Below are positions 11,153 to 24,852 of a stretch of DNA of 64,000 bases, in pieces. The notes under the pieces are model-generated. The model made no database searches, was not told the origin of the DNA, and saw nothing but the letters and a program-made list of their open reading frames with translations. Every line of letters begins with the position of its first letter. Position 1 is the stretch's first letter. Made by a program: the position numbers and the translations under genes. This DNA comes from Verrucomicrobiota bacterium JB024 (GTDB taxonomy: Bacteria; Verrucomicrobiota; Verrucomicrobiia; Opitutales; Cerasicoccaceae), in the NCBI GenBank assembly GCA_030673825.1, contig JAUTCS010000073.1, positions 1 to 64,000 on the forward strand. Direction: 5' to 3'.

Positions 11153-11181
11153 TTGCAACGAAATTGTAACAGAGCTGTAAA
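11153..11181 (+). promoter_or_regulatory. Three 11-bp-spaced TTGTAAC-like repeats (Pho-box-like)
   Basis: TTGCAAC at 11153, TTGTAAC at 11164 and CTGTAAA at 11175 recur with an exact 11-base period and 4-base spacers, the architecture of boxes bound by PhoB/OmpR-type regulators. A very similar triplet lies at 21933-21961. The site is upstream of the TonB operon, but a terminator hairpin follows at once, so its target promoter is uncertain. Confidence 0.5.
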
Positions 11182-11221: not shown

Positions 11222-11304
11222 CTTTTGTCACAAAAGTGCCCCTTCGTTACCGAACTTTAACATTAGAAGCCTAGTCAGAGCGGGCTTTTTTTGCTGATTA
11301 GGCT
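11222..11304 (+). promoter_or_regulatory. Leader region of the TonB operon with two inverted repeats
   Basis: CTTTTG-tca-CAAAAG at 11222-11236 is a short palindrome that could be an operator. AGCCTAGTCAG (11268-11278) pairs over 11 positions, with one G-U, with CTGATTAGGCT (11294-11304) around a T-rich 15-base loop, just upstream of the DUF3450 gene start. The second could be a mRNA leader hairpin. No function is shown by sequence alone. Confidence 0.45.
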
Positions 11305-11328: not shown

Positions 11329-12096
11329 ATGAAGCTGAAGCCTTTAATCATCACCACGCTCTGCCTGGCAGCCGCTCCGCTGTTCGGGCAGGAGGACTCG
11401 CCCGTGAAGGCGACGAAGTCCAAACTCGATAAATGGGTCGAGACCCAACAGCTCATCTCCGAGGAGAAAAACGACTGGACCGCGGAGCAGGCGTCGCTGG
11501 CCGATACCAAGGAGCTTCTGCAAAAGCAGCTTGAGGCCCTCAACGAGAAGATCAACGAGCTCGAAGACACCGCCACCCAGGCCGATAGCGAGCGTAACGA
11601 CCTGCTGCTGGAGCGGGCCGCCTACATGCGCGCGAACAAGAGCCTGGCGGATGTCGTTACCGGTCTTGAGCAGCGTCTGGTCGCCCAGACCGCCTACTAC
11701 CCGCAGCCCCTGCTGGATATCGTCGAGCCGCTGCTGGTGCGTATCCCGGAAAACCCGGAAGAGACGGACGCCAGCCTCGGTCAGCGTGTGCAGAATATCG
11801 TGGGTATTCTTTCCCAGGCCCAGAAGTTCAACAACTCGATCACCTTTATCGGTGAGACCCAGGCGGTCGCCGGTAGCGACAAGCAGGTACAGGTCTGGAC
11901 CTTCTATTGGGGGCTGGGAGCAGCCTTTTACGTCGATGAGCTCGGCCAGGTTGGCGGCATCGGCGTCCCCACCAAGGACGGTTGGGTCTTCACGCAGGAC
12001 GACAGTATCGCCGCGCGCGTGGGTAAGATGCGCGCCTACTACGAAAACACCGACCAGGACATCAAATTCGTCCCGGTGCCGGTCACGATCCAGTAA
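11329..12096 (+). CDS. DUF3450 family periplasmic coiled-coil protein
   Basis: A 255-residue exported protein with a signal peptide (MKLKPLIITTLCLAAAPLFG), a long coiled coil at about residues 35-115 and a compact C-terminal domain (VQVWTFYWGLGAAFYVD). It matches the DUF3450 proteins that accompany TtpC-ExbB2-ExbD2-TonB2 systems, for example in Vibrio. It is first in the operon, 21 bases before the TtpC-like gene. Its family role is unproven; cell-envelope support of the energy-transducing complex is the usual proposal. Confidence 0.88.
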   Translation: MKLKPLIITTLCLAAAPLFGQEDSPVKATKSKLDKWVETQQLISEEKNDWTAEQASLADTKELLQKQLEALNEKINELEDTATQADSERNDLLLERAAYMRANKSLADVVTGLEQRLVAQTAYYPQPLLDIVEPLLVRIPENPEETDASLGQRVQNIVGILSQAQKFNNSITFIGETQAVAGSDKQVQVWTFYWGLGAAFYVDELGQVGGIGVPTKDGWVFTQDDSIAARVGKMRAYYENTDQDIKFVPVPVTIQ

Positions 12097-12117
12097 TTTA
12101 CAAATTTCGCGCTAAAG

Positions 12118-13509
12118 ATGAAACACACGATCAAAACCCTCGCGGGGGCGTTCGCCGTTGTAGTTGCCGCGCACTACGCGTGCGCGCAAGACATGAACCA
12201 GGTTCAGTCGAAGGCCGATGCCGACTTGAGCGCCTCGTTGCGCGAACTCTCCGATCTGCGCAGCCAGATTGCTCAGGAAAAGATTCCGCTTTCCAAGGAA
12301 ATCAGCGACTTGGAAGACCAGGTGCTGGAGCGCCAGCGCGAGTACGACCGCCTGCTGCGTGCCCGCGACAGCCGCACGCTGGACCTCGACCAGCTCAAGA
12401 AGCAGGTTGAGACGATGTCCAAGTCCAACGAGTACATCGCCGGCCTGCTTAACGAATACGTGCGCAACCTTGAGGCTCAGATGCCCATCAGCGAGTACAC
12501 CAAGTACGAGGATACGTTGAATGCCGCCAAGTTTGCCCCGACCAATCCGAACCTTGATCAGGAGGGAAAGCTCTCCGCCCAGATCAAGGCCGTGGATGTC
12601 GCCATCACGCGCATGGACGAGCTCATCGGTGGTTACACCTTCGACGGTGAGGCGCTTTCCAACCAGGGCGTACTTGAGCAGGGGACTTTCCTCGTGCTCG
12701 GCCCGACCGTGTTCTTTGCCAGTGACGACGGCCTCGTCGTCGGTCAGGCCGAGACGCAGGTCAACACCGCGGACCCGATCGTCATCCAGCTCCCCGAGCA
12801 GTTCAACGCCGGGTTGACCCAACTGATCCAGAGCGGCCAGGGCGCGCTCCCGGCCGACACGACGCTGGGCAAGGCCATCAAGGTCGAGCGCTCCAGCGAC
12901 TCGATCGCCGAGCACATCGAAAAGGGCGGCTCCGTCGGTTACGTGATCATCGCTCTGGGCGTGGTCGCCGTCCTGATGGGCCTGTTCAAGGTTTTCGAGA
13001 TCATGAGCTTTAAAACCGCCTCGGTGAAGGATGTGCAGGATACGCTCGACTTGCTGGCCGAGGGGAAGGCCGAAGAGGCCGAAGCCCGCGCCAACCAAGT
13101 CAAAGGCGCAGTTGGCGCAATGCTCGCCTGTGGTGCTGCGCATGCTAAGGAAAAGCGCGGCGTGATCGAAGAGCTCATGTACGAGCGCATCCTCAAGTGC
13201 CGCCCGAACCTCGAGCGTTTCCTCCCCTTTATCGCGCTAATCGCCGCCGCCGCTCCTCTGCTGGGGCTGCTCGGTACTGTTATCGGGATGATCAGCACCT
13301 TTAACCTCATCACGATCTTCGGCACGGGCGACGCCCAGTCGCTCTCGAAGGGGATTTCCGTCGCGCTGGTTACGACCGAGTTCGGTCTCATCGTGGCCAT
13401 CCCGGCCCTGCTGCTGCACGGCGCTCTCTCCCGCTTCGCCAAGCGCAAGCTCTCGGAGATGGAGCAGGCCGCCATCGCCTTCCTCAACGGTCTCAGCCTG
13501 ATCAAGTAA
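12118..13509 (+). CDS. TtpC-like MotA/TolQ/ExbB proton channel protein with N-terminal coiled coil
   Basis: 463 residues. A signal peptide ending near ACAQ is followed by a coiled coil (about 30-120), a periplasmic middle region, and the ExbB/TolQ core with membrane segments near 276-298, 365-398 and 415-438. The core motif PLLGLLGTVIGMISTF is typical. This extended architecture is that of TtpC, the extra inner-membrane component of TonB2-type systems, rather than a plain ExbB. It should use the proton gradient together with the following ExbB, ExbD and TonB proteins. Start chosen at ATG 12118, which begins the signal peptide. Confidence 0.9.
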   Translation: MKHTIKTLAGAFAVVVAAHYACAQDMNQVQSKADADLSASLRELSDLRSQIAQEKIPLSKEISDLEDQVLERQREYDRLLRARDSRTLDLDQLKKQVETMSKSNEYIAGLLNEYVRNLEAQMPISEYTKYEDTLNAAKFAPTNPNLDQEGKLSAQIKAVDVAITRMDELIGGYTFDGEALSNQGVLEQGTFLVLGPTVFFASDDGLVVGQAETQVNTADPIVIQLPEQFNAGLTQLIQSGQGALPADTTLGKAIKVERSSDSIAEHIEKGGSVGYVIIALGVVAVLMGLFKVFEIMSFKTASVKDVQDTLDLLAEGKAEEAEARANQVKGAVGAMLACGAAHAKEKRGVIEELMYERILKCRPNLERFLPFIALIAAAAPLLGLLGTVIGMISTFNLITIFGTGDAQSLSKGISVALVTTEFGLIVAIPALLLHGALSRFAKRKLSEMEQAAIAFLNGLSLIK

Positions 13510-13521
13510 CGCGACACACCC

Positions 13522-14106
13522 ATGTGGGAAAAAATCATAGACATCTGGGACGGCGGCGGCTGGGTCATGATCCCGCTGGCGGTCCTGGCGTTTCTGACCT
13601 ACGCGACCGCGTTTCAGGTATTGATGTACCTCTACACGACCAACCTCGGAAAGGTAAACGAGGAGCAGTGGAAGAAGTGGATCAACGACCCTGAGAACGG
13701 CGAAGGCCGCGTCGGCGAGATCATCAAGTACGCCATGCTGGGCGAGGGCATGCAGAAGAACATTCGCCGCCGCTTCGACGAGGTGCGCATGAGCATCACC
13801 GGCATGATCGACCGACGCATCATCTTTATCTCCTCGCTGGTCGCGACGGCCCCGCTCATGGGGCTGCTGGGCACCGTCATCGGGATGCTGCTGACCTTTT
13901 ACGGTATCTCCCAGTCCGGCGGTGCCGAGACCGCGGGCGTCATCGCCGACGGTATCCGCAAGGCGCTCATCACCACGCAGACCGGCCTCACCATCGCCCT
14001 GCCGGGTGTGTTCATCGTTATGGTCATCCAGCGTAAAAAGCACGCCCTGGAGGCCTGTCTGGCCCGTCTGGAGTCCATCGTCCTGACCGTTTCCAAAGCC
14101 GCCTAG
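13522..14106 (+). CDS. exbB: ExbB-like proton channel subunit
   Basis: A 194-residue inner-membrane protein with three transmembrane segments (about 13-33, 95-120, 147-170) and the conserved PLMGLLGTVIGMLLTF motif of the MotA/TolQ/ExbB family. It forms the pentameric channel around ExbD that converts proton flow into TonB movement. It lies 12 bases after the TtpC-like gene and 14 before the first exbD. Confidence 0.93.
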   Translation: MWEKIIDIWDGGGWVMIPLAVLAFLTYATAFQVLMYLYTTNLGKVNEEQWKKWINDPENGEGRVGEIIKYAMLGEGMQKNIRRRFDEVRMSITGMIDRRIIFISSLVATAPLMGLLGTVIGMLLTFYGISQSGGAETAGVIADGIRKALITTQTGLTIALPGVFIVMVIQRKKHALEACLARLESIVLTVSKAA

Positions 14107-14120
14107 AACTTTTTAACCGC

Positions 14121-14519
14121 ATGTCACGTCACCGCATCGTAGAGGACGAAGCCCCGCCGGAGATTAACCTGTCTCCGATGATCGACTGTATCTTCATCCT
14201 GCTGATCTTCTTCATCGTCACGACCGTCTTCGTCGAGGAGGTCGGGCTTGACGTGAACAAACCGCAGGCAGCCGCGTCGGTTTCGCTGGATGAAAACGAG
14301 ACGATCGAGTTTCTCGTGACCGAGGACGGCAAGGTCATGTACGAGGGCGAGGATATCGGCGTCAACGGCGTCGGCCCCAAGATCAAGCAGCTCATGGTGG
14401 GCGAGGATGTCCCCGTGAGCGTGAAAGCCGAGAAGAAGGGCGAGTTCGGCTTGTTGGCCAAGGTGTACGCCGAGGTCGTCGCAGCCGGAGCCCAGAACGT
14501 GCACTACGTACCCAAGTGA
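14121..14519 (+). CDS. exbD: ExbD/TolR protein, first copy
   Basis: 132 residues with a single N-terminal membrane helix (IDCIFILLIFFIVTTVF) carrying the essential acidic residue in PMIDC, and a periplasmic domain. The N-terminal tail EAPPEINLSPMID is typical of ExbD. A second, related exbD follows 10 bases later; paired ExbD proteins also occur in some other TonB systems. Confidence 0.93.
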   Translation: MSRHRIVEDEAPPEINLSPMIDCIFILLIFFIVTTVFVEEVGLDVNKPQAAASVSLDENETIEFLVTEDGKVMYEGEDIGVNGVGPKIKQLMVGEDVPVSVKAEKKGEFGLLAKVYAEVVAAGAQNVHYVPK

Positions 14520-14529
14520 TTTTCTAGCC

Positions 14530-14934
14530 ATGCCACGCGCAAGCATTACCGAAGAGCAGGACACCGTCGCGGAGATCAATCTGTCTCCGATGATCGACTG
14601 TATCTTTATCCTGCTGATCTTCTTTATCGTCACGACCGTCTTTGTGGACGAGGCCGGTGCCGACGTGCACAAGCCCAACGTCTCCACCTACCGCAAGCTG
14701 AACAAGAACAGCATCCAGATCGCCATCACCGCGGACGACCGCGTCATCTACGGCGGCAAGGAGATCGGGGTGGGGGGCGTGGCCCCGCGCATCAAGCAGG
14801 CGCTCATGAAGAACACGGTGCCCGTCAACGTCCAGTGTGACGAGCACGCCAGCGTGGAAGTTTTCGACCGCGTCGTCACCGAGGCCAAGCTGGCCGGTGC
14901 CGTCGAGGTCAACTTCTCCGCCTTCAAGGAATAG
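14530..14934 (+). CDS. exbD: ExbD/TolR protein, second copy
   Basis: 134 residues, same design as its neighbour: cytoplasmic tail VAEINLSPMIDC, one membrane helix almost identical to the first copy, then a periplasmic domain that has diverged (ADVHKPNVSTYRK against LDVNKPQAAASVS). The two genes are a clear local duplication with a nearly unchanged membrane helix, suggesting both sit in the same channel. Confidence 0.93.
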   Translation: MPRASITEEQDTVAEINLSPMIDCIFILLIFFIVTTVFVDEAGADVHKPNVSTYRKLNKNSIQIAITADDRVIYGGKEIGVGGVAPRIKQALMKNTVPVNVQCDEHASVEVFDRVVTEAKLAGAVEVNFSAFKE

Positions 14935-14942
14935 GGCCGATC

Positions 14943-15599
14943 ATGACGCAGATTTACCATCCGACGAAGACCAAGGCCCGTCACGTCGTCCTCGGCGTGA
15001 TCTTGGGGGCGATCTTCACCTTCATCGTTTTCCTGCTCGTTCCGCTCACGCAGTTCATCGCGGACGAAAAACCCGAGAGCAGCGACGCCGAGCAGATGGA
15101 CATCGCTTTCACGCCTCCCGAGGAGCTCCAGATGGAGGAAGAGCCTCCGCCCCCCGAGCAGGAGGAAGAGCCGCCGGAAATGGAAGAGACCCCGGAGCTC
15201 TCGCTCGAACAGCTTGAGCTCTCGCTCAACCCCGGCATGGGTGGCGACCTCGCGGGCGACTTTGCTCTGCCCGGCATGGGCCTGGGCAAGGCCGACCTGG
15301 ACATCTCGTCCATCTTCGACCTCGACGACCTCGACAAGCAACCGCGTGCCCTCAGCCAGCCGATGCCGAAGTTCCCGCGCGCCCTCATGCGCAAGAAGAT
15401 CAGCGGTTACGTCAAGCTGCTGTTCATCGTGGATGAAAACGGCAAGGTGCAGGACATCGAAGTCGTAGAAGCCTCACACAAGGAGTTTGCCGATGCGGCC
15501 GTCGAGGCCGTCAAACGCTGGAAATTCGAACCCGGAACCAAGAACGGGGAAAAAGTCCGCACCCGCGTGCGCCTCCCCCTTCCCTTTAACGTAAAATGA
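14943..15599 (+). CDS. tonB: TonB energy-transducing protein
   Basis: 218 residues. One N-terminal membrane helix (about 18-40) is followed by a short acidic/proline-rich linker (EEEPPPPEQEEEPPEMEE, about 61-78) and a C-terminal TonB domain (SGYVKLLFIVDENGKVQDIE ... AVKRWKFEP). The linker is acidic where classical TonB has lysine-proline repeats and is short, as in TonB2-type proteins that rely on TtpC. Its stop overlaps the next gene by 4 bases. Confidence 0.92.
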   Translation: MTQIYHPTKTKARHVVLGVILGAIFTFIVFLLVPLTQFIADEKPESSDAEQMDIAFTPPEELQMEEEPPPPEQEEEPPEMEETPELSLEQLELSLNPGMGGDLAGDFALPGMGLGKADLDISSIFDLDDLDKQPRALSQPMPKFPRALMRKKISGYVKLLFIVDENGKVQDIEVVEASHKEFADAAVEAVKRWKFEPGTKNGEKVRTRVRLPLPFNVK

Positions 15600-16999
15600 A
15601 TAAGACACTCATTCTGAACGCAGCGCTTATCTTTTCCGCCGGTCTGGCGGCCATCCCCGCTGTGCACGCGCAGGAGAGCGCCGCCGCCCCGCAGCCGTAT
15701 CCGCTGGTCGAGGTCTATGCGCCCCAGTTCTGGAGCGATCCTGAGTTTGTGAAGGACTTTCTGGGAAGCTACGGCGTCAACCCGCAGGTCGAGCCCGAGG
15801 TTACCGACGACGAGGTGAAGCTGTTCCGCAAGCTGGTGGACCTTATCCAGACAGACCCGCAGGCCGCCGCCCTTCGTCTGAGTCAGGAGATCGACGAGGA
15901 CAGCAGTGCCGCGCTCAACTTCGTGCTGGCCAACCTCTATTTCCAGGAGGGTGATCTGGCTAACGCTGCCAAGTACTACGAGGCCGCCATCGCCAAGTAC
16001 CCGGACTATCGCCGCGCGCATAAGAATCTCGGCCTGCTCATGATGCAGGATCAGGACCTGGCCGGCGCTGCCGAGCACCTCAGTCGCGCGGTCGAGCTGG
16101 GCGATCTCGACGGGCGTAACTACGGCCTGCTCGGCTACTGTTACCTGGACAAGGCCGATTACGTTGCCGCCGAGTCGGCCTACCGCACCGCCATTTTGCA
16201 GGAGCCCAGCGTGAACGACTGGAAGCTCGGTCTGGCGCAGTCGCTGCTGGGCCAGGAAGAATACTCCGAGGCCAATGCGCTTTTCCTCAGCCTGATCGAG
16301 GCCGATCCCAGCAATCCCGATCTGTGGCTTTATCAGGTGAACACCGCCCTGGGCATGGACCGCCCGCGCGAGGCCGCGGTCAACATCGAAGTGGTTCGCC
16401 GCATGGGCGCGGTCAAGCCCGCCAGCCTCAAGCTGCTCGGAGATATCTATATGAGCATGCGCATGCCCGACAAGTCCGTCGAGGTCTATGAGGAGCTCCT
16501 CGCGCAGGACGAAGACGGCAGCTACAAGGACGCTTCCATGCGTGTGGCGAAGTACCTTGCGCAGGCCGGTAGCTATGATCAGTCCGCCAAGATGATCGAG
16601 ACGATCGAGAACCGCTACCCGGAACTGACTGAGGACGAGCAGATTGAACTGCTTCTCCTTCAGGCCCAGATCGCCCGCGGCCAGGGACAGGACGAGGATG
16701 CACACAAGGCTTTCGCCGACATCGTTGCACGTGACCCGCTCAACGGTGAGGCGCTGATCGAGCTCGCCGGTTACGAGCAGGATACTGGTAACACCGACAA
16801 GGCCATGTTCCTCTACGACTGCGCGGCCAAGGTTGATGGCTACGAGTTCAAGGCCCTGCTTTGCCAAGCTAGGATCAAGGTCGGCGAGCGCAAGTTTGAC
16901 GAGGCTATCCCGCTGCTTCGCGCCGCGCTGCAGTACAAGGACGATGCCCGAGTGGCCCGTTTCCTTGAGCGCGTCGAGCGTGCCGCCAAAAACTCCTAA
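15596..16999 (+). CDS. Periplasmic tetratricopeptide-repeat protein of the TonB locus
   Basis: 467 residues with a signal peptide (cleavage near VHAQ) and TPR-type helical hairpins across about 80-460 (examples ALNFVLANLYFQEGDLANAA, RAHKNLGLLMMQDQDLAGAA). A TPR protein is the regular last member of TtpC-TonB2 clusters. It probably scaffolds periplasmic contacts of TonB or the receptor. Translation is coupled to tonB through an ATGA overlap. Confidence 0.87.
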   Translation: MNKTLILNAALIFSAGLAAIPAVHAQESAAAPQPYPLVEVYAPQFWSDPEFVKDFLGSYGVNPQVEPEVTDDEVKLFRKLVDLIQTDPQAAALRLSQEIDEDSSAALNFVLANLYFQEGDLANAAKYYEAAIAKYPDYRRAHKNLGLLMMQDQDLAGAAEHLSRAVELGDLDGRNYGLLGYCYLDKADYVAAESAYRTAILQEPSVNDWKLGLAQSLLGQEEYSEANALFLSLIEADPSNPDLWLYQVNTALGMDRPREAAVNIEVVRRMGAVKPASLKLLGDIYMSMRMPDKSVEVYEELLAQDEDGSYKDASMRVAKYLAQAGSYDQSAKMIETIENRYPELTEDEQIELLLLQAQIARGQGQDEDAHKAFADIVARDPLNGEALIELAGYEQDTGNTDKAMFLYDCAAKVDGYEFKALLCQARIKVGERKFDEAIPLLRAALQYKDDARVARFLERVERAAKNS

Positions 17000-17043
17000 C
17001 CCACGATTCCGGCCCCAGCTTGAGCGACGGTTTTGTTTCTACG

Positions 17044-17799
17044 ATGCGCCTTTGGTTCCAGTTATTGGTGATGCTGACTGTCAGTCTGGAGATGACGGGC
17101 GCACCTGCGGCGGATACCAGCCTGCTCGCTCATTCTCCTTTTCTTCCGGCCGGTTATCATGCTGCCGATCAGAAAAAAACTCCCCCGCCTGTTCCGCAGG
17201 CACCTGCTCAACCGCTGCCCAATATTGCGTTGCGGGGAGTGATGGTGTTCAGCGGCGAGTGCTATGTCAGCCTTTACAATCTGGAATTGGACAAGGCCCA
17301 GTGGTGCCGGATCGGCGAGGACGTTTTCGGGGGCAAGGTGACGGGCTACGATACGGAGATGGGAGTGGTCAGCTATGCCCATGGGGGCCGTACCTATCAG
17401 TACGCCCTGGCCGACGATCTGGATGAGCGCGCACAATTGATCGCGGAGTCCCGCCAGCCGCGTTTCGGCTCGGATGGCCGCGCCGTCGAGAAGCGCGCCT
17501 ACTCATCGATGCCGATCGGTCAACAGATCCACTACAACGACCCCCGGTTCAAGGAGCGGCTGCTCCAGCAGAACATCGAATTGCCCGCGAACTGGGGGAC
17601 GCCCGGTTTTCAGCAGGACCTGATTGATCAGCGGGATCAGCTGCGCGAGGAGTCGAAGTCGCAGGCTCTGGCTGCCAAGGACCGGCGGGCCTCCAACGGC
17701 AGCGGCTCGAAACGCATTTTCCCGATTTCCCCCGTCAACAGTGGCTTGTCCGTACCCCAGAAAGAGGTGCGTGCAGCAATCAACGGAGGCGCTAAATGA
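17044..17799 (+). CDS. Exported protein, possible GspC/PilP-like beta domain
   Basis: 251 residues from ATG 17044, or 259 from TTG 17020. An N-terminal hydrophobic signal segment is followed by a Pro-rich linker (KKTPPPVPQAPAQPLP) and a small beta-rich stretch (about 62-125: IALRGVMVFSGECYVSLYNL, WCRIGEDVFGGKVTGYD) that resembles the homology region of GspC/PilP secretion proteins. The C-terminal half is charged and probably extended. I do not recognise a named family. It sits between the TPR protein and the receptor gene and overlaps the next gene by 4 bases, so it likely serves the TonB system. Confidence 0.72.
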   Translation: MRLWFQLLVMLTVSLEMTGAPAADTSLLAHSPFLPAGYHAADQKKTPPPVPQAPAQPLPNIALRGVMVFSGECYVSLYNLELDKAQWCRIGEDVFGGKVTGYDTEMGVVSYAHGGRTYQYALADDLDERAQLIAESRQPRFGSDGRAVEKRAYSSMPIGQQIHYNDPRFKERLLQQNIELPANWGTPGFQQDLIDQRDQLREESKSQALAAKDRRASNGSGSKRIFPISPVNSGLSVPQKEVRAAINGGAK

Positions 17800-18605
17800 A
17801 TCATTTTTTTGCCAATCTTCTCGGTATGCTTTGTCTTTCGTCCGCCTGTCTTCAGGCAGCTGGCGAGCAACCACTCGACATTGTCGCGATCGAAAGTCAC
17901 TCGCAGTGGTGGCCGGTTCGCCTGACTCTGCTTGAGGATGTACAGGCCCCCGACGGGAATATCAAAGCCGGCCGCGATGTTATGTTGGTCCGCGTCGAGG
18001 ATGGGCTGGTCATCGCCGACAGTGGGCGGATGGGGATGCTGACGCTTCAGCCTGAGCAGACCGATCTGGTCGAGCGGGCCCGGGCTCGTCAGGACATTCC
18101 TTGGAGTGGGCAGGGGAAGCTCTCCCATGAGCTGGCCAATAAACTGATCGACCCGCAGACCCGTCGGCAGAACAACCCTGAGACTTTCAACGAGGTGGAT
18201 TACCTGGTGATCCTGTATGGGCAGCTCGGGACGGAGCCTTGCCAGAAGCTCTTTGCCGCCGTCGAAGCGGCGCAGGAACAATGGAGCCACGATGGCCTCA
18301 ACTGCACCGTGCTCTTTCTGCCCATGCAGACGGGCAAGGCTGAGCTCATGGCCGCTTTTGAAGCGGGTGAAGTGACCTGGCCCTCAATGTTTCCGTACCT
18401 GAGTACCGGTTATATCGATGTGCTCCACCACCAACCGCAAAACGGCACGCTCGTGCTGGTCGATAAAAACGGCCGCCTGCTGGCGCGAGTAGAATCCGAG
18501 GGGGAAGAGCAACTCTCTATCGGTATGGCCGAAGTTGGCCGGAAAATGCAGGAGGACAAGCTGACGCATGGCGTGGCCATGCCCAGCACTGAAACGGCTA
18601 TTTAA
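17796..18605 (+). CDS. Exported protein with thioredoxin-like C-terminal region lacking CxxC
   Basis: 269 residues with a signal peptide (cleavage near LQAAG). The first third (VTLLEDVQAPDGNIKAGRDV-like region, 30-75) looks like a small beta-barrel domain. The second part (YLVILYGQLGTEPCQKLFAA ... GTLVLVDKNGRLLARVE) follows a thioredoxin-fold pattern, but has only one cysteine where CxxC would be, so redox activity is unlikely. This is a fold guess by eye. The gene overlaps its upstream neighbour by 4 bases and its stop shares a base with the receptor start (TAATG), so all three are translationally coupled. Confidence 0.72.
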   Translation: MNHFFANLLGMLCLSSACLQAAGEQPLDIVAIESHSQWWPVRLTLLEDVQAPDGNIKAGRDVMLVRVEDGLVIADSGRMGMLTLQPEQTDLVERARARQDIPWSGQGKLSHELANKLIDPQTRRQNNPETFNEVDYLVILYGQLGTEPCQKLFAAVEAAQEQWSHDGLNCTVLFLPMQTGKAELMAAFEAGEVTWPSMFPYLSTGYIDVLHHQPQNGTLVLVDKNGRLLARVESEGEEQLSIGMAEVGRKMQEDKLTHGVAMPSTETAI

Positions 18606-21600
18606 TGCCGGAGACGGTAGCTATGAAAATTTTTAGAGGGACCATGAATCAAAGGCCTTACGCCAGCAATCTGCTGAAATGCGTTCGCATTCTGGCGGGA
18701 CTTCTCGTGCTCGCATGGGCCTGTGGGCAAGGGTTGATGACCGAAGCGCTTGCCCAACCGGTCGGAAGCGAGGCTTCCTACGCGACGCCCAACGACGCGG
18801 CGGCGGGGATCAACCCCGATGTGGAGGATGCTTCCAAGGTGGAGCAGGTGACCGCGCCGGCTGCCGGTGAAACGATCCCGCAGGGCATGGGCGAGGTGGC
18901 CGGTCAGGTTATTGATGCGGAGACTGGAAACTTCATCGCCGAGGTGACTGTGGTCCTGGAGTGGCAGGGTGAGCAGGGCCGGGAAGAAGACAATGAAGTC
19001 GAGCGCCAGCTCGTGACAACGACCGATGCGGACGGTAACTTTAATTTTCAGCCGGTGCCCTCCGGCATTTACAACGTCCGCTTTTCCAAGGGGAACTATC
19101 GCATCTCCACACTGAAAGACCTGAAGGTCTACCCGGACAAGGTGACGCGGGCGGACTTTCCGCTCCCGCGCAAGCCGATTGAAACGGCGGGCGACATCTT
19201 CGACATGGAGGAGTTTGAGGTGACGGCCGAGAGCTTGGAAGGCTCGGGAGACTGGCTGTTGGACATGCGCCAGAACTCTGCCGGGATGGTTAACTTCCTC
19301 TCGACGGAGGACTTTGCCAAATTCGGCGGTACGGACCTTTCGGACATCATCCAGCGCATCCCGGGGGTGACGGTGGTCGAGGGGCAGTTCGCGGTTGTGC
19401 GTGGTCTGGGTGACCGCTACAACAGTACGCTGGTCAACGGCCTGCCCATGCCCAGTCCCGACCCGGTCCGACAGGGGCTTCAGCTGGACCTTTTCCCGAC
19501 CACGATCATCGAGAGCGTGGTGACGAACAAGAGCTTTTTGCCGAACATGCCGAGCAACTCCTCGGGGGCGGCCTTCGAGCTCAACACCAAGTCCTACCCG
19601 ACGGAGCTGACCATGTGGTTCAAGGCCGGGGTGCGCTTCAATTCGAACGCGATGGACACCTTTCTGAAAAGCCCGCATGCGAGCTTCGACGACGTGCTGG
19701 CCAACGGTGCTGCCAACCGCCCGCCCGCTCCGCCCGAGGGAACTCCCGCTCTCAACCTCCCGAACTTCACCAACCGCCAGAACGCCGTCGTCGAAGCTGA
19801 CGCCCCGATGGGCCTGACTTTCAGTACGGGTATCGGCAACACGATCGAGGTCGGCGGACGTGATCTGGGGATCATCGTGTCGGCGTCTTACGACAGTTCC
19901 TATACGACTGCTTTGGGCACGCAGCAGAATCAGTATGCCACGCCCGGTCGTTATCTTTCTTCCACCGGGCGAGTTCTCCGGTACGGTTCGCTGGCCTCCG
20001 GCGAGCTGGGCGGTTCGGACCTGCTCTATGATGTTACCTCCTCGACCTCGGACGTGTTGATCGGGGTGCTTACGAGTGTGGGCTATAACCTGGACAAAGA
20101 AGGTAACCACCACGTCTCGGGTACGATGCTTTTTAGCCGCAACGGGATTGACTTCGCCCAGCGCAAAGCCGACGGCTACCTGCCCTCGCAGTATGCCGTC
20201 TCCAACACCGGGGTTCCTCAGTCCGACCGTACAAATATGCCAGACGTTGCTGGTTTGGCCGACCGTGGTGACGGTAACTATGTCTACGTCAACCAAGACA
20301 CTATTGGTTACGAGCAGCGCGACCTGTATTCCTTCCAGTTGGCTGGTGATCACACTTTCGAAGAAATGGATGACCTGCATCTCTCCTGGGGGGGGACTTA
20401 CGCGCATACCAGCAGCGATACGCCGGACCAATCCGTATTCAAGTACTTCTACAATGCCAATACTGGGCAGTATTTCACGCTGCCAGCGAGCGCCATCGGC
20501 GGCTCTTCAGTCCTGCTCCAGCAGACTTGGCGCACGATCGAAGAGGATCTATGGGGGGCGCGAGCCGACGCGGAGTACAATATCCCGCATTTTGGGGGAG
20601 ATGAGACCTCAGACCTTTCATTCGCCGGTGGGATGTTTTACTCGGAGTCGAGCCGGAACACCGAGCAGTTTGACTCGCTCTTCGCCTCTAATAGTAGCTC
20701 TGCCGGTACACCGCAGGACTTGGCGGATGTCATGGACTTAGTGGCCCAGCAACCGCTAGCGTCCAACGCCTCCACCAGTCAGGAGACTCTGGCTTTTTAC
20801 CTCATGCCCTCACTGGACATCCTCGATGTCTTTAATGTCACCGGTGGCGCTCGTTTTGAAAAGCTCAACATGTTCGCCACCGGCGACTCCAAGTTGACGG
20901 ATACCATCAGTCTTCAGAATGTACTCGACGAACCCGCCGGGAACAGCACGAACGGCCAGTTGATCGGTTTTACCGATGCCAGTGTTCCCGGGGTGATCGA
21001 CGAGGCTTATATCCTGCCCGGGATCGTGTTGAGTGTCGAGCCGCTGGAGAATCTGACCTTCCGGGCAGGCTATTCAGTGACGGTCGCCCGGCCTTCGTTT
21101 CGCGAACTTTCTCCGTATTTTTCACGCGACCTGGGGACCGGTGACCTCATCTTGGGTAACCCGAATCTGAAAACTTCGGATGTGACCAGTTGGGATGCCC
21201 GTGTGGAGTATAACTTCGACTGGGGTGGTCTCCTGTCGGTGGGAGCTTTTTATAAAAGCATCAAGAATCCGATCGAGCAAATCGTGATTCAGGAGATCCA
21301 GACCGGTGAGGAGATTCAGACTTTCTTCAACAACCCCAATACCGCTCAGGTCAAGGGGCTGGAGTTCGAAGCCCGGACGAGCCTGGGCTTCATCGACGAT
21401 GTGCTGGAGTACTGGTCCGTCGGCGGCAACTACACGATGATCGACGCGCAGGTCGGGTACCCGGACAATGTCCTTTCCACCTACTACAGCGGGACGGGGG
21501 TGATCACTTCTCCCTACGCGGGGTTGACCCCTCCAACTACCCGGCGTCTCTACGACCAGCCCGAGTGGATTATCAATGCCGATATCACGTACAATAACCC

Positions 21601-21895
21601 GGAGTGGGGGACGGCCATCACGCTGGCGTATTTTTCCCAGAGCGACGTGCTTTCCGGGGTCGGCTCGGGCAGTGCGGACTCAGTGGACCAGTATACTGAC
21701 CAGTTTTATCAGCTCGATCTTACTCTGAGTCAGGCACTTGACGAGAATTTCACCTTTAAGTTCCGGGTGGCGAACCTCACGGACTCACCGCGCGGGGTTA
21801 TCTACGACCCGACACTGGTGAACGCCGATACGCCACCCAGGCAGGACTACCGGATCGGCCAGACTTACAGCATCTCGATCGAGTGGAAGTTCTAG
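18605..21895 (+). CDS. Large TonB-dependent outer-membrane receptor
   Basis: 1096 residues; starts at 18605 and 18623 are both possible. After a long signal region (cleavage near EALAQ) comes a CarboxypepD_reg-like beta-sandwich (about 96-192), a probable TonB-contact segment (DMEEFEVTAES), then a plug with IPGVTVVEGQFAVVRGLGD and NGLPMPSPDP, and a beta-barrel ending in the aromatic C-terminus SIEWKF. Such receptors import bulky or scarce substrates using TonB energy. Substrate is unknown; the RGLGDRYNSTLVNG plug type is widespread in aquatic diderms. It is the last gene of the TonB operon and the likely client of that dedicated system. Confidence 0.93.
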   Translation: MPETVAMKIFRGTMNQRPYASNLLKCVRILAGLLVLAWACGQGLMTEALAQPVGSEASYATPNDAAAGINPDVEDASKVEQVTAPAAGETIPQGMGEVAGQVIDAETGNFIAEVTVVLEWQGEQGREEDNEVERQLVTTTDADGNFNFQPVPSGIYNVRFSKGNYRISTLKDLKVYPDKVTRADFPLPRKPIETAGDIFDMEEFEVTAESLEGSGDWLLDMRQNSAGMVNFLSTEDFAKFGGTDLSDIIQRIPGVTVVEGQFAVVRGLGDRYNSTLVNGLPMPSPDPVRQGLQLDLFPTTIIESVVTNKSFLPNMPSNSSGAAFELNTKSYPTELTMWFKAGVRFNSNAMDTFLKSPHASFDDVLANGAANRPPAPPEGTPALNLPNFTNRQNAVVEADAPMGLTFSTGIGNTIEVGGRDLGIIVSASYDSSYTTALGTQQNQYATPGRYLSSTGRVLRYGSLASGELGGSDLLYDVTSSTSDVLIGVLTSVGYNLDKEGNHHVSGTMLFSRNGIDFAQRKADGYLPSQYAVSNTGVPQSDRTNMPDVAGLADRGDGNYVYVNQDTIGYEQRDLYSFQLAGDHTFEEMDDLHLSWGGTYAHTSSDTPDQSVFKYFYNANTGQYFTLPASAIGGSSVLLQQTWRTIEEDLWGARADAEYNIPHFGGDETSDLSFAGGMFYSESSRNTEQFDSLFASNSSSAGTPQDLADVMDLVAQQPLASNASTSQETLAFYLMPSLDILDVFNVTGGARFEKLNMFATGDSKLTDTISLQNVLDEPAGNSTNGQLIGFTDASVPGVIDEAYILPGIVLSVEPLENLTFRAGYSVTVARPSFRELSPYFSRDLGTGDLILGNPNLKTSDVTSWDARVEYNFDWGGLLSVGAFYKSIKNPIEQIVIQEIQTGEEIQTFFNNPNTAQVKGLEFEARTSLGFIDDVLEYWSVGGNYTMIDAQVGYPDNVLSTYYSGTGVITSPYAGLTPPTTRRLYDQPEWIINADITYNNPEWGTAITLAYFSQSDVLSGVGSGSADSVDQYTDQFYQLDLTLSQALDENFTFKFRVANLTDSPRGVIYDPTLVNADTPPRQDYRIGQTYSISIEWKF

Positions 21896-21932
21896 GGCTG
21901 TCCCACTGGAAGTAGTCCGCGAAACGCTGTCT

Positions 21933-21961
21933 TTGTGACGCGATTGTAACACGGGTGACGC
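21933..21961 (+). promoter_or_regulatory. Three 11-bp-spaced TTGTAAC-like repeats before the beta-helix gene
   Basis: TTGTGAC (21933), TTGTAAC (21944) and GTGACGC (21955) recur at exactly 11 bases, the same layout as the site at 11153. They end about 60 bases before ATG 22022, a normal position for an activator box overlapping a -35 region. Resemblance to Pho boxes is an inference. Confidence 0.55.
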
Positions 21962-21975
21962 GGAAACGATACGAG

Positions 21976-21997
21976 GGAGGCGCATAATGCGGCCTCC
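21976..21997 (+). other. Short hairpin upstream of the beta-helix gene
   Basis: GGAGGC (21976-21981) pairs with GCCTCC (21992-21997). It precedes TTTCC, so it may be a weak terminator of the receptor operon or a leader hairpin. Confidence 0.4.
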
Positions 21998-22021
21998 TTT
22001 CCATTCATAATCCCAATAACT

Positions 22022-23917
22022 ATGACTAAGAAAAATCTGCTCACGCTATTCTGTGCTGCTGTGGCCGGGACCTCCGCCTACGCCATCACGGTTGTCAATC
22101 CGACCAACTTCCCGGGCACCGTCGTTGACGTCGGTGACGGCACCTATAACATCGAAGCTGACCTGTCTCTCGGTACCAGTGCCTCCTCCGGCAGCTGGGA
22201 CTCCACCGACGGTGAGTACATCCTCGACCGCGCGGTCTTTGTGACCAACGGTGCGACCCTCTCGCTGGACGCCGGCGTTCTCGTGCGCGGCCAACCCCGC
22301 GACGCCACGAACCAGCCGGGCACGCTCTGTGTGACCAAGGACGGCTTCATCGACGCTGAAGGTACCGCTGCCGACCCGATCATCTTCACGACGGCTGCTG
22401 ACACCAGCCTCGGACGCTGGGAATCTGGCGACACCTTCCTGGACAGCGATCCTTTCAACAGCCCGCTGCCTCCGCTCGATCCCACCGACGAAAGCGTCGC
22501 CTACGTCAATCTCTGGGGTGCCGTGACCATCCTTGGTAATGCTCCCTGTAATGCCGGTTATGCCGCCGACGGCGTGACCCCCGGTATCGACTTCATCGAA
22601 GGTTATCAGCTCGGCACTCAGACCGAGCGTATCATCTATGGCGGCCAGCGCCCCTTCGATAACTCCGGTATCTTCTCCTATGTTTCCATCCGCCACAGTG
22701 GGGACGCCCTTGCCATCGGTAAGGAACAGCAGGGCCTGACCCTCGGTGGCGTCGGTGCCGGTACCCGCCTCGAGTACATCGACATCTACTGCTCCGGCGA
22801 CGACGGTATCGAAATCTTCGGTGGTACCGTTGGCCTGAAGAACATCATGCTGAGCTACTTCGACGATGACGGCCTCGACCTCGACCAGGGTTACACCGGC
22901 TATGTCCAGTTCGCCTTCATCCTCGGCAGCTCGCTGGGCGGCCCCGATGGCACCAACACCGTCACGGTTGCCTCCTCCGCCCGTTCCGGCGGCGTGGTCA
23001 CCGTCACCAGCGCTTATGCTGACGGCCTGAGCATCGGTGATACCTTCACGGTTTCCGGTATCGGCTTCAGCTCCGACGATCCCAATGGCACCTTTACGGT
23101 GGCCTCCGTCATCGACTCCCTCACCTTCACCTACGCCGACGCTGGTGCTGACGAAACCTTTACCGCTTCCACCGGTACGGTCACTTACACCCAGTCTGGC
23201 GAAACCGGCCTCGGTGCCGACTGGCTCGGTGAATGGGACGGCGAAGACGACATCCCTGAAGACGACAATAACATCAGCCCGACTGGCCAGCCCTTCGCCA
23301 ATCCGACCCTGTACAACGTCACGTTCATGGGCCCGCGCGATGGTACCCGTCAGACGCTGACCGGTGGTGTGATCCGCGCCCGTCAGGGTTTCGGCGGTAA
23401 CGTCTTCAACAGCATCATGGTGAACACCCCGGCTGCTGTCAGCGGTGTCTTCCGTATCGACACCTCCACCAGCACGGCCCCGGTTGACTTCGGCTATGCC
23501 AGCACCTCGCCGGAAGACCAGGTCGCTGCCGGTACCCTCAACTTCGCCGGTACGCTCTGGTACAATGTGGCCGCCAACACCGCCGCCAGCATCGCCAAGG
23601 ATGGCGCCTCCAGCGTCGAGTACGCGGTCCTGACCAACAACACGGTCATGGCTCCCGGTGCCGAAAAGAACTTCGTGGGCACCAACCCGCAGATCACCGG
23701 TGTCAGCCAGACCGCTCCGAACGGCCTGAACCCGGTTCCCTCTCCGGTTATCGCCGGCTCGGCCTCGCGTCGCGTTGCCTATGGTGCCACCTTCTTCGAC
23801 GAAGTTAGCTACATCGGCGCTTTCGCTCCCTCCCAGACTGCTGCTCTGTGGACCACCGGTTGGACCGCGATGAACCTCCGTGGCATCCTCGTGGATAGCC
23901 GTGGCGGCGACCTCTAA
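22022..23917 (+). CDS. Secreted beta-helix-like protein downstream of the TonB receptor
   Basis: 631 residues, signal peptide ending near SAYA, rich in Gly, Thr, Asp and Ser with few lysines. The first half has the regular pattern of right-handed beta-helix proteins (YILDRAVFVTNGATLSLDAG, LEYIDIYCSGDDGIEIFG). An inserted beta-domain at about 315-395 has DSLTFTYADAGAD. Similar large secreted proteins accompany TonB receptors in other diderms, but I cannot name the family or ligand. Codon use is strongly biased to GC-ending codons, suggesting high expression. A hairpin follows at 23981. Confidence 0.8.
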   Translation: MTKKNLLTLFCAAVAGTSAYAITVVNPTNFPGTVVDVGDGTYNIEADLSLGTSASSGSWDSTDGEYILDRAVFVTNGATLSLDAGVLVRGQPRDATNQPGTLCVTKDGFIDAEGTAADPIIFTTAADTSLGRWESGDTFLDSDPFNSPLPPLDPTDESVAYVNLWGAVTILGNAPCNAGYAADGVTPGIDFIEGYQLGTQTERIIYGGQRPFDNSGIFSYVSIRHSGDALAIGKEQQGLTLGGVGAGTRLEYIDIYCSGDDGIEIFGGTVGLKNIMLSYFDDDGLDLDQGYTGYVQFAFILGSSLGGPDGTNTVTVASSARSGGVVTVTSAYADGLSIGDTFTVSGIGFSSDDPNGTFTVASVIDSLTFTYADAGADETFTASTGTVTYTQSGETGLGADWLGEWDGEDDIPEDDNNISPTGQPFANPTLYNVTFMGPRDGTRQTLTGGVIRARQGFGGNVFNSIMVNTPAAVSGVFRIDTSTSTAPVDFGYASTSPEDQVAAGTLNFAGTLWYNVAANTAASIAKDGASSVEYAVLTNNTVMAPGAEKNFVGTNPQITGVSQTAPNGLNPVPSPVIAGSASRRVAYGATFFDEVSYIGAFAPSQTAALWTTGWTAMNLRGILVDSRGGDL

Positions 23918-23980
23918 ACAAACCCGGTTGAATTTCACAACTAGGTTCCCGATTGATATTCAATTGATACGTTAACGATT

Positions 23981-24008
23981 GGGCTTGGCGGTTCAGCCCG
24001 CCAAGCCC
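23981..24008 (+). other. Perfect 11-bp hairpin between beta-helix and PEP-CTERM genes
   Basis: GGGCTTGGCGG (23981-23991) pairs perfectly with CCGCCAAGCCC (23998-24008) around a 6-base loop. No T run follows, so it is either a factor-dependent stop, an RNA-stability hairpin, or a leader element of the next gene 19 bases on. Confidence 0.6.
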
Positions 24009-24027
24009 TCCCGAACAACAAACTGAC

Positions 24028-24786
24028 ATGAACAAACTTATTGGTTTCACCTCCGCCCTTATCGCCAGCGCGGCGATATCCCATGGCGCGTTTCTGGTGT
24101 CTGCCTGGGATTTCCATTCCTTGGAATATACCGACGGTAGCATCTCGGCTGATCTCTTCGACCGCAACACGGACCTGGACGGCCCCGGCATGTCCAGCGG
24201 CACGCTGTACTTCAACGGCCAGTCTGGTTCTACGAACCTGTTGGACGACGCCGAATCGTTCCCGGGCGACATCACGGTTCCCTATGCGAACGTTAATGAC
24301 AACTACAGCCTTACCAGCTACAAGGACCGTCAGTTCACGAACCTCGACAGCACGCCTGCCCAGGCCATCCAGTTGTTGACCTCGGCTGACGGTTCTTCGA
24401 TCGTGTTTGCCACGTCGACGACCGGCTATGCCCTCGGCTACACGGACTATACGCTGACCTATGCGGCCAACGTTCTGAGCGGTAGCACCACCATCACGTG
24501 GGAATACAGCACGAATGGCAGCAGCTGGACAGTGGCGGGTATCAACGAAATCACCGCTCTCTCGGGCAATAACGATGCCGACGTTAATTCGGTGGCCCTC
24601 GGTAGTGGTGTGGTTTCTGACGAGATATACTTCCGGGCGACCTTCAGCTCGATGGACAGCCTGCTGAATATCGACAACGTCGTTATCTCTGCCAACGCTG
24701 CCGTTCCGGAACCCTCCACCTACGCCGGTATCGCCGGTGGCCTGGCTCTGGCCTTCGTGGCCCTGCGCCGTCGCCTCCGCAAGTAA
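24028..24786 (+). CDS. PEP-CTERM sorting-domain exported protein
   Basis: 252 residues. Signal peptide at 1-21, a beta-rich body, and a C-terminal PEP-CTERM signal: VPEPSTYAGIAG, a hydrophobic helix, and the basic tail RRRLRK. Such proteins are anchored and processed by an exosortase (EpsH/XrtA type) and usually end up in the exopolysaccharide or surface layer. The exosortase is not in this window. It follows the beta-helix gene and is terminated at 24824. The body resembles nothing I can name. Confidence 0.9.
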   Translation: MNKLIGFTSALIASAAISHGAFLVSAWDFHSLEYTDGSISADLFDRNTDLDGPGMSSGTLYFNGQSGSTNLLDDAESFPGDITVPYANVNDNYSLTSYKDRQFTNLDSTPAQAIQLLTSADGSSIVFATSTTGYALGYTDYTLTYAANVLSGSTTITWEYSTNGSSWTVAGINEITALSGNNDADVNSVALGSGVVSDEIYFRATFSSMDSLLNIDNVVISANAAVPEPSTYAGIAGGLALAFVALRRRLRK

Positions 24787-24823
24787 ACGCCCTTTGGGTT
24801 TACGTTATATACTTAAAAAGGAA

Positions 24824-24852
24824 AGCGCCTCCGAAATGGAGGCGCTTTTTTT
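24824..24852 (+). terminator. Rho-independent terminator after the PEP-CTERM gene
   Basis: AGCGCCTCC pairs with GGAGGCGCT around GAAAT, followed by seven T. Confidence 0.93.

Follow-up and report, generated by a model that had tools for sequence, protein, structure and literature searches.

A TtpC-type TonB cluster of a verrucomicrobium with a GspC-like clamp protein and an ElpS-type receptor partner: a candidate dedicated capture and import system

Introduction

What is the function of a gene cluster that joins a complete TtpC-type TonB motor to one outer-membrane receptor, with two exported proteins lacking a family assignment between them and two more secreted proteins behind? The question is raised by positions 11329–24786 of a 64,000-nucleotide stretch (hereinafter the window) of contig JAUTCS010000073.1 from Verrucomicrobiota bacterium JB024. 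Here, 12 genes on the plus strand code, in order, for a DUF3450 protein (TtpB), TtpC, ExbB, two ExbDs, TonB, a TPR protein (TtpD), two exported proteins that we term X (gene 17044) and Y (gene 17796), a TonB-dependent receptor, a beta-helix-like protein and a PEP-CTERM protein. A preliminary description made from the sequence had seen in this locus a self-contained and dedicated uptake machine; the genes it listed are all open at the positions it gave, and Pfam confirms the families of the motor and the receptor. We propose that the cluster probably specifies a dedicated outer-membrane system of the ElpS/TonB-receptor type for capture and import, which most likely responds to phosphate shortage and acts on phosphate or an organic phosphorus compound.

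The motor and its single receptor

The first seven genes have the makeup of a TtpC-type (TonB2) energy module, with a long MotA/ExbB protein, ExbB, ExbD and TonB encoded together. A DUF3450 protein (11329–12096; PF11932, 1.5e-21) comes first, followed by TtpC, an exported coiled coil with a MotA/ExbB domain (12118–13509; PF01618, 2e-28), ExbB (13522–14106; PF01618, 9.2e-21), two copies of ExbD (14121–14519 and 14530–14934; PF02472, 8.2e-23 and 2.1e-23), TonB (14943–15599; PF03544 (TonB_C), 7.5e-21) and, in the last place, a TPR protein (15596–16999; TPR_16, 8.7e-28). The DUF3450 and TPR proteins are identified as TtpB and TtpD after their counterparts in Vibrio vulnificus, where both are required for TonB2 function and where siderophore uptake needs TtpB, TtpC and TtpD (PMC6957404). 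The tandem ExbD pair (14121–14934) contrasts with the motors of Vibrio, Alteromonas and Pseudoalteromonas, which have one ExbD each; the two-ExbD state is kept in both genera that share the cluster (see below), and a single ExbD is seen in the related loci L059, L192 and L194.

The receptor (18605–21895) combines an N-terminal CarboxypepD_reg domain with the plug (PF07715) and barrel (PF00593) in Pfam, and is TIGR01782-like in NCBIfam, where no match to a substrate-specific family was found. Described earlier as giant, it is 1096 aa long and falls within the 1083–1174 aa range of its close relatives. It is the only TonB-dependent receptor above the PF00593 cut-off in the source genome (95% complete), the second, weak match being a 279-aa barrel protein. 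The genus has 0–2 PF00593 matches per genome (a count in which the model missed one known receptor) as opposed to at least 20 in several other genomes of the order. Since the source genome also has a single DUF3450 gene, this receptor is very probably the motor's only client. The view of a self-contained, dedicated machine is thus upheld by the single receptor over the cut-off and by the synteny and receptor pairing described next. The related claim that TtpC systems usually serve unlinked receptors is unsupported: receptor and motor are linked in the TonB3 system of Vibrio, which has its receptor gene first (PMC6957404), and in Alteromonas, Pseudoalteromonas and Myxococcota.

Conservation of the cluster

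The full 12-gene order is kept in eight genomes of two genera, namely the window and loci L051–L057, where in four cases X was too diverged for a direct match and was called by position and length, and the last gene of L057 was called by position and a PEP-CTERM-like end. Identity to the window proteins is 20–32% for Y and 13–24% for X. Thus, the gene order has been held over a long divergence, and its retention across eight genomes and two genera with X and Y only 13–32% identical argues against chance.

A sample of 54 genomes, most of them from the order of the source organism, yielded Y in 10; in L058 and L059 it adjoins the receptor and beta-helix genes, with the block in L059 being convergent to the motor. 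A survey of 387 genomes of the phylum recovered Y in 17, and all 10 full-length matches are at receptor/beta-helix loci. The other seven are weak matches to the thioredoxin part only (six of the seven sites were read, none at a receptor locus) and were excluded from the Y–receptor count. With the two genome surveys pooled, 13 of 13 full-length Y genes stand beside a receptor of the window type, so that the outcome named in the preliminary description as one that would count against it, homologs mostly away from TonB loci, did not appear for Y. Outside Verrucomicrobiota, Y again accompanies receptor or motor genes in loci of Myxococcota and others (L075–L078, L085), which were chosen via the beta-helix gene and are hence a biased sample for Y. 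One of these, from a proteobacterial metagenome-assembled genome (MAG), has beside Y and the motor a receptor open frame of 1774 codons (L076:4268–9592) as compared to the usual ~1100.

The beta-helix protein as a receptor partner

The protein encoded at 22022–23917 has no match in Pfam or NCBIfam; its beta-helix fold is predicted from the earlier description and from the polygalacturonase-like modeling reported for Flavobacterium proteins (PMC8115612). Using it as the query, we scanned named genomes, obtained at least 531 relatives and kept 79 loci. In 69 of these, drawn from Bacteroidota, Verrucomicrobiota, Myxococcota and others, a receptor gene is found on the same strand at a distance of no more than 2.5 kb, and among the remaining 10 several stop at a contig edge. 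Judging from these neighborhoods, the receptor has in the beta-helix protein a core partner, a role that the preliminary description had missed.

The means of export and anchoring differ across the family: many Bacteroidota members have a lipobox, and among 10 other members tested, nine carry a type IX secretion system (T9SS) sorting domain and one a PEP-CTERM-like tail. Because the anchor varies (lipobox, T9SS or PEP-CTERM-like) and the receptor partner stays, we infer that these are surface proteins whatever their export route, and the same pattern favors surface capture over export by the receptor. Directly downstream in the window is a PEP-CTERM protein (24028–24786) whose motif, already noted earlier, is confirmed by PF07589 (6.1e-6) and which occupies the same position in the syntenic loci. 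In L077 (403–2109), the beta-helix partner itself ends in a PEP-CTERM-like tail. A second architecture without DUF3450/TtpC and without X or Y is seen in two MAGs labeled Opitutaceae and Akkermansia (L079, L080), where receptor, beta-helix gene, two PEP-CTERM genes and a gene for a protein of ~1010–1030 aa are followed by ExbB–ExbD–ExbD–TonB.

The family very probably includes ElpS of Caulobacter, as suggested by the homology of the window protein to relatives that stand in the CC0170–CC0171–gspC arrangement and by its own adjacency to a TonB-dependent receptor gene. Slr4 of Pseudoalteromonas was considered as another relative, and nothing tied it to the beta-helix family.

Phosphate and secretion links in relatives

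The order ElpS (CC0170)–receptor CC0171–gspC is known from Caulobacter and Sphingomonas alaskensis (PMC2996285). Phosphate-starved cells make ElpS, which stimulates phosphatase activity; its release requires the type II secretion system (T2SS), yet it reaches the surface without it (PMC2996285). T2SS and TonB-dependent receptors belong to the PhoB regulon of Caulobacter (PMC11208175). The F. johnsoniae low-phosphate lipoproteins FI, FII and FIII have been described as related to the Caulobacter protein, with FI adjoining a receptor gene and FII adjoining phoBR (PMC8115612).

Comparable linkages recur in the loci that we collected. On plasmid pBGP9 of Alteromonas macleodii (NZ_OX359244.1), phoB–phoR–pstS–2OG oxygenase–beta-helix–receptor precedes DUF3450–TtpC–ExbB–ExbD–TonB–TPR; four Pseudoalteromonas records have the same motor followed by beta-helix and receptor genes; and Myxococcota loci bring motor, beta-helix gene and receptor together. 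Plasmids of Sphingomonas and Indioceanicola show beta-helix–receptor–gspC–gspD. In five Bacteroidota loci (L086, L099, L100, L103, L116), PhoB-like response regulators lie divergently beside the beta-helix gene. Several other neighbors of beta-helix loci, taken by their length for PstS or PhoU, proved in Pfam to be mostly MoxR, SurE, FtsH and others, and only the PhoB/PhoR-like pair held.

Proteins X and Y

Neither X (17044–17799) nor Y (17796–18605) has a family match in Pfam or NCBIfam, and to this extent their earlier designation as unrecognized stands; by fold, both are recognizable. X is an exported protein whose AlphaFold model is good only for residues ~58–123. For this HR domain, the first-ranked Foldseek match is GspC of the GspC–GspD complex 3oss (E 0.023, probability 1.00), and VIA-align superposes it on 61 of 65 GspC residues (Z 8.8, rmsd 1.6), with PilP and LspC as the next-best matches. 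Profile searches of the PDB gave only a GspC hint (0.07) that was lost once T2SS paralogs were added, and hhalign comparisons with two GspC sequences were collinear and not significant. The nearest homologs of X elsewhere in the order are found between gspD and gspE (L061, L067) or adjoining gspD (L065, L068). Given the structural match and these gspD/gspE contexts, X is, on the strength of the model, a GspC/PilP-type clamp domain inside a TonB cluster. By Pfam and the gene list, the cluster lacks a secretin gene and every other gsp gene; since X is outside any gsp operon, we do not class it as a bona fide GspC. The tail of X is modeled at low confidence and has no Pfam match to a C-terminal PDZ or coiled-coil part. 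A paralog of X comes after pth, a short gene and one that is ssb-like, with no gspD in the stretch read (L005:3020–3652; G000:C102), and three congeners have matches of similar length to it (open frames of 211–214 aa).

Y is likewise exported, and its model (pLDDT 78.7) has a small N-terminal barrel followed by a thioredoxin-like domain, for which Foldseek matches to thioredoxin-like proteins, including ResA-type ones, begin at E 2.5e-5; the sequence-profile search of the PDB gave only a plasmoredoxin hint (0.07). The CxxC motif is absent in 18 of 18 Y homologs, which argues that Y is not a classical disulfide enzyme.

Transcription and regulatory elements

TonB and the TPR gene overlap by 4 bases, X and Y by 4 bases, and Y and the receptor gene by 1 base, in agreement with the translational coupling of X and Y described earlier. 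A TTG at 17020 is an alternative start of X, which may be translated from it. A terminator splitting the energy module from X and Y would have spoken against their belonging together; no plus-strand one is listed there in the consensus scan. The scan places a bidirectional intrinsic terminator, a strong hairpin with a T run, at 24822–24848, 3′ of the PEP-CTERM gene and closing the cluster. Regulatory repeats at 21933–21950 precede the beta-helix gene itself, which may therefore also be transcribed separately.

Three tandem 7-bp repeats with an 11-bp period (TTGCAAC-N4-TTGTAAC-N4-CTGTAAA; 11153–11181, plus strand), found by sequence and a genome pattern match, lie upstream of the cluster; they resemble PhoB/OmpR boxes and are conserved in L051 and, with one change, in L052. 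Half-sites of 7 bp at an 11-bp period have the spacing of PhoB boxes. Immediately 5′ of gene 1 is a promoter-like element on the plus strand, CGTTAC-N4-CTTTAAC-N10-TAGTCA (11245–11277), with TAGTCA as a −10-like part, whose layout recurs 5′ of the first gene in each of the eight relatives compared; a matrix built from L053–L057 only and applied with the full site ranks it first of 301,188 positions. The PhoB-box-like repeat 5′ of the beta-helix gene (TTGTGAC-N4-TTGTAAC; 21933–21950, plus strand) is one of two exact matches to the search pattern in the source genome, and an 11-bp-period repeat occurs at the same place in four of four congeners, where the background frequency is 0.028 per kb. 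These elements make phosphate control of the cluster in the source organism plausible. The phoU gene of the source genome (L166:1868–2629; L201; G000:C98, C114) stands alone, apart from the pstSCAB-like operon and without a box.

Function and alternative explanations

Our proposal draws on the gene content, the synteny, the single receptor, the folds of X and Y, the cross-phylum pairing of beta-helix protein and receptor, and the linkage of relatives to phoBR/pstS or gspCD. The ElpS-like beta-helix protein and the PEP-CTERM protein would collect a phosphorus ligand at the surface and pass it to the receptor, which would import it, with the TtpB–TtpC–ExbB–ExbD–TonB–TtpD module converting proton flow into receptor opening. 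The clamp domain of X and the catalytically dead thioredoxin-like domain of Y may be periplasmic adaptors between the inner-membrane motor, or a T2SS machine, and an outer-membrane part; X might accordingly either link the motor to the outer membrane or dock secreted proteins to the T2SS.

Several observations weigh against this proposal. No phosphate gene is present in the cluster or flanks of the window locus, and the Vibrio TtpC systems serve iron uptake (PMC6957404). The identity of the family with ElpS and FI is drawn from synteny and published statements, and the PhoB-like neighbors in Bacteroidota do not reach the curated cut-offs for PhoB. The window beta-helix protein, which starts MTKKNLLTLFCAAVAGTSAYA, has no lipobox by eye. 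The pst promoter of the source genome has a layout similar to that before gene 1, but the resemblance is weak and post hoc: the site before pstS ranks only 24th of 301,188 positions, and far lower, with the similarity vanishing, once the matrix is built without the clade of the window. None of the other genome-wide repeat matches is by an evident phosphate gene, and a different regulator of the OmpR family could be what binds the PhoB-like repeats.

The same dedicated machine might act on another cargo, such as an iron complex, as with Vibrio TonB2, a vitamin or a glycan, which we regard as somewhat unlikely. It would accord with the part played by TtpB, TtpC and TtpD in siderophore uptake of Vibrio vulnificus (PMC6957404), with a receptor that matches no substrate-specific family, and, on general grounds, with the thought that a genome with one receptor might use it for iron or B12. 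Against it stand the nature of the cross-phylum partner, an ElpS-type beta-helix protein whose relatives lie by phoB–phoR–pstS or in phosphate-starvation clusters, and a cluster in which genes for iron, heme or cobalamin were not seen. Much more improbable is a receptor working in reverse to export the beta-helix and PEP-CTERM proteins, comparable to Oar of Myxococcus xanthus, a TonB-dependent transporter without which the protease PopC is not secreted (PMC6434023). Two secreted proteins encoded directly 3′ of the receptor and a secretion-system fold in X would suit such a role, but the homologous beta-helix proteins have export routes of their own (lipobox, T9SS or PEP-CTERM tail) and yet stay paired with the receptor, and for this reason the receptor is unlikely to be their exporter.

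A further alternative concerns X only and is compatible with phosphorus capture and import: X might be an alternative GspC through which the beta-helix and PEP-CTERM proteins dock at the T2SS, outside the TonB machine. We hold this to be a tentative possibility, in keeping with the GspC HR fold, the X paralogs that occupy the position of gspC next to gspD and gspE, the gspC directly 3′ of the receptor in the alphaproteobacterial Sphingomonas and Indioceanicola, and the T2SS-dependent release of ElpS (PMC2996285); it is countered by the translational coupling of X to Y and the receptor, by the cluster's lack of a secretin gene, and by the ability of ElpS to reach the surface without T2SS. An unlikely, more far-reaching version of our proposal is a hybrid trans-envelope machine in which a T2SS-derived GspC clamp has entered a TonB import complex, coupling the display of a surface capture protein and energized import through one receptor within a single unit.

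Significance

The cluster joins three lines treated apart in the literature that we searched: the TtpB/TtpC/TtpD motor, the phosphate-starvation ElpS/receptor pair and the T2SS clamp. Having only one receptor and one DUF3450/TtpC module, the source genome offers a clean test of what the extra parts TtpB and TtpD do, and it is equally suited to asking what a beta-helix partner does for a receptor. If the family assignment holds, this partner is one that phosphate-starved Flavobacterium and Caulobacter make in quantity. X and Y now have folds and testable partners.

Comparison with known systems

The Vibrio TonB2/TonB3 systems share the six-part motor in identical gene order, and TonB3 also begins with a receptor gene (PMC6957404); they differ in the iron substrates of TonB2 and in their single ExbD, and X, Y and a beta-helix partner are unreported there. 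The HR proteins GspC and PilP have in common with X the six-stranded HR fold, and X differs from them in that no PDZ or coiled-coil part was found by Pfam and in being encoded within a TonB cluster that lacks a secretin gene. Caulobacter crescentus ElpS/CC0171 presents the same beta-helix/receptor pair beside a GspC-type gene, but there a whole T2SS operon follows, the protein has a lipoprotein anchor and no TtpC motor is reported in the cluster. PUSIII/PUSIV of F. johnsoniae are alike in having a surface lipoprotein with weak polygalacturonase resemblance encoded next to a receptor gene or phoBR (PMC8115612), and are distinguished by their Bacteroidota lipoprotein and by the lack of a reported TtpC motor. 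The pBGP9 cluster of Alteromonas macleodii contains phoBR and pstS, has one ExbD, and X, Y and a PEP-CTERM gene were not seen in it; it has the same motor and the receptor/beta-helix pair together. Each building block of the verrucomicrobial cluster is already known. In the papers of the one library searched, we found neither a connection of the TtpB/C/D motor with the ElpS pair nor an assembly of these blocks that also includes a GspC-type clamp and a thioredoxin-like protein devoid of CxxC.

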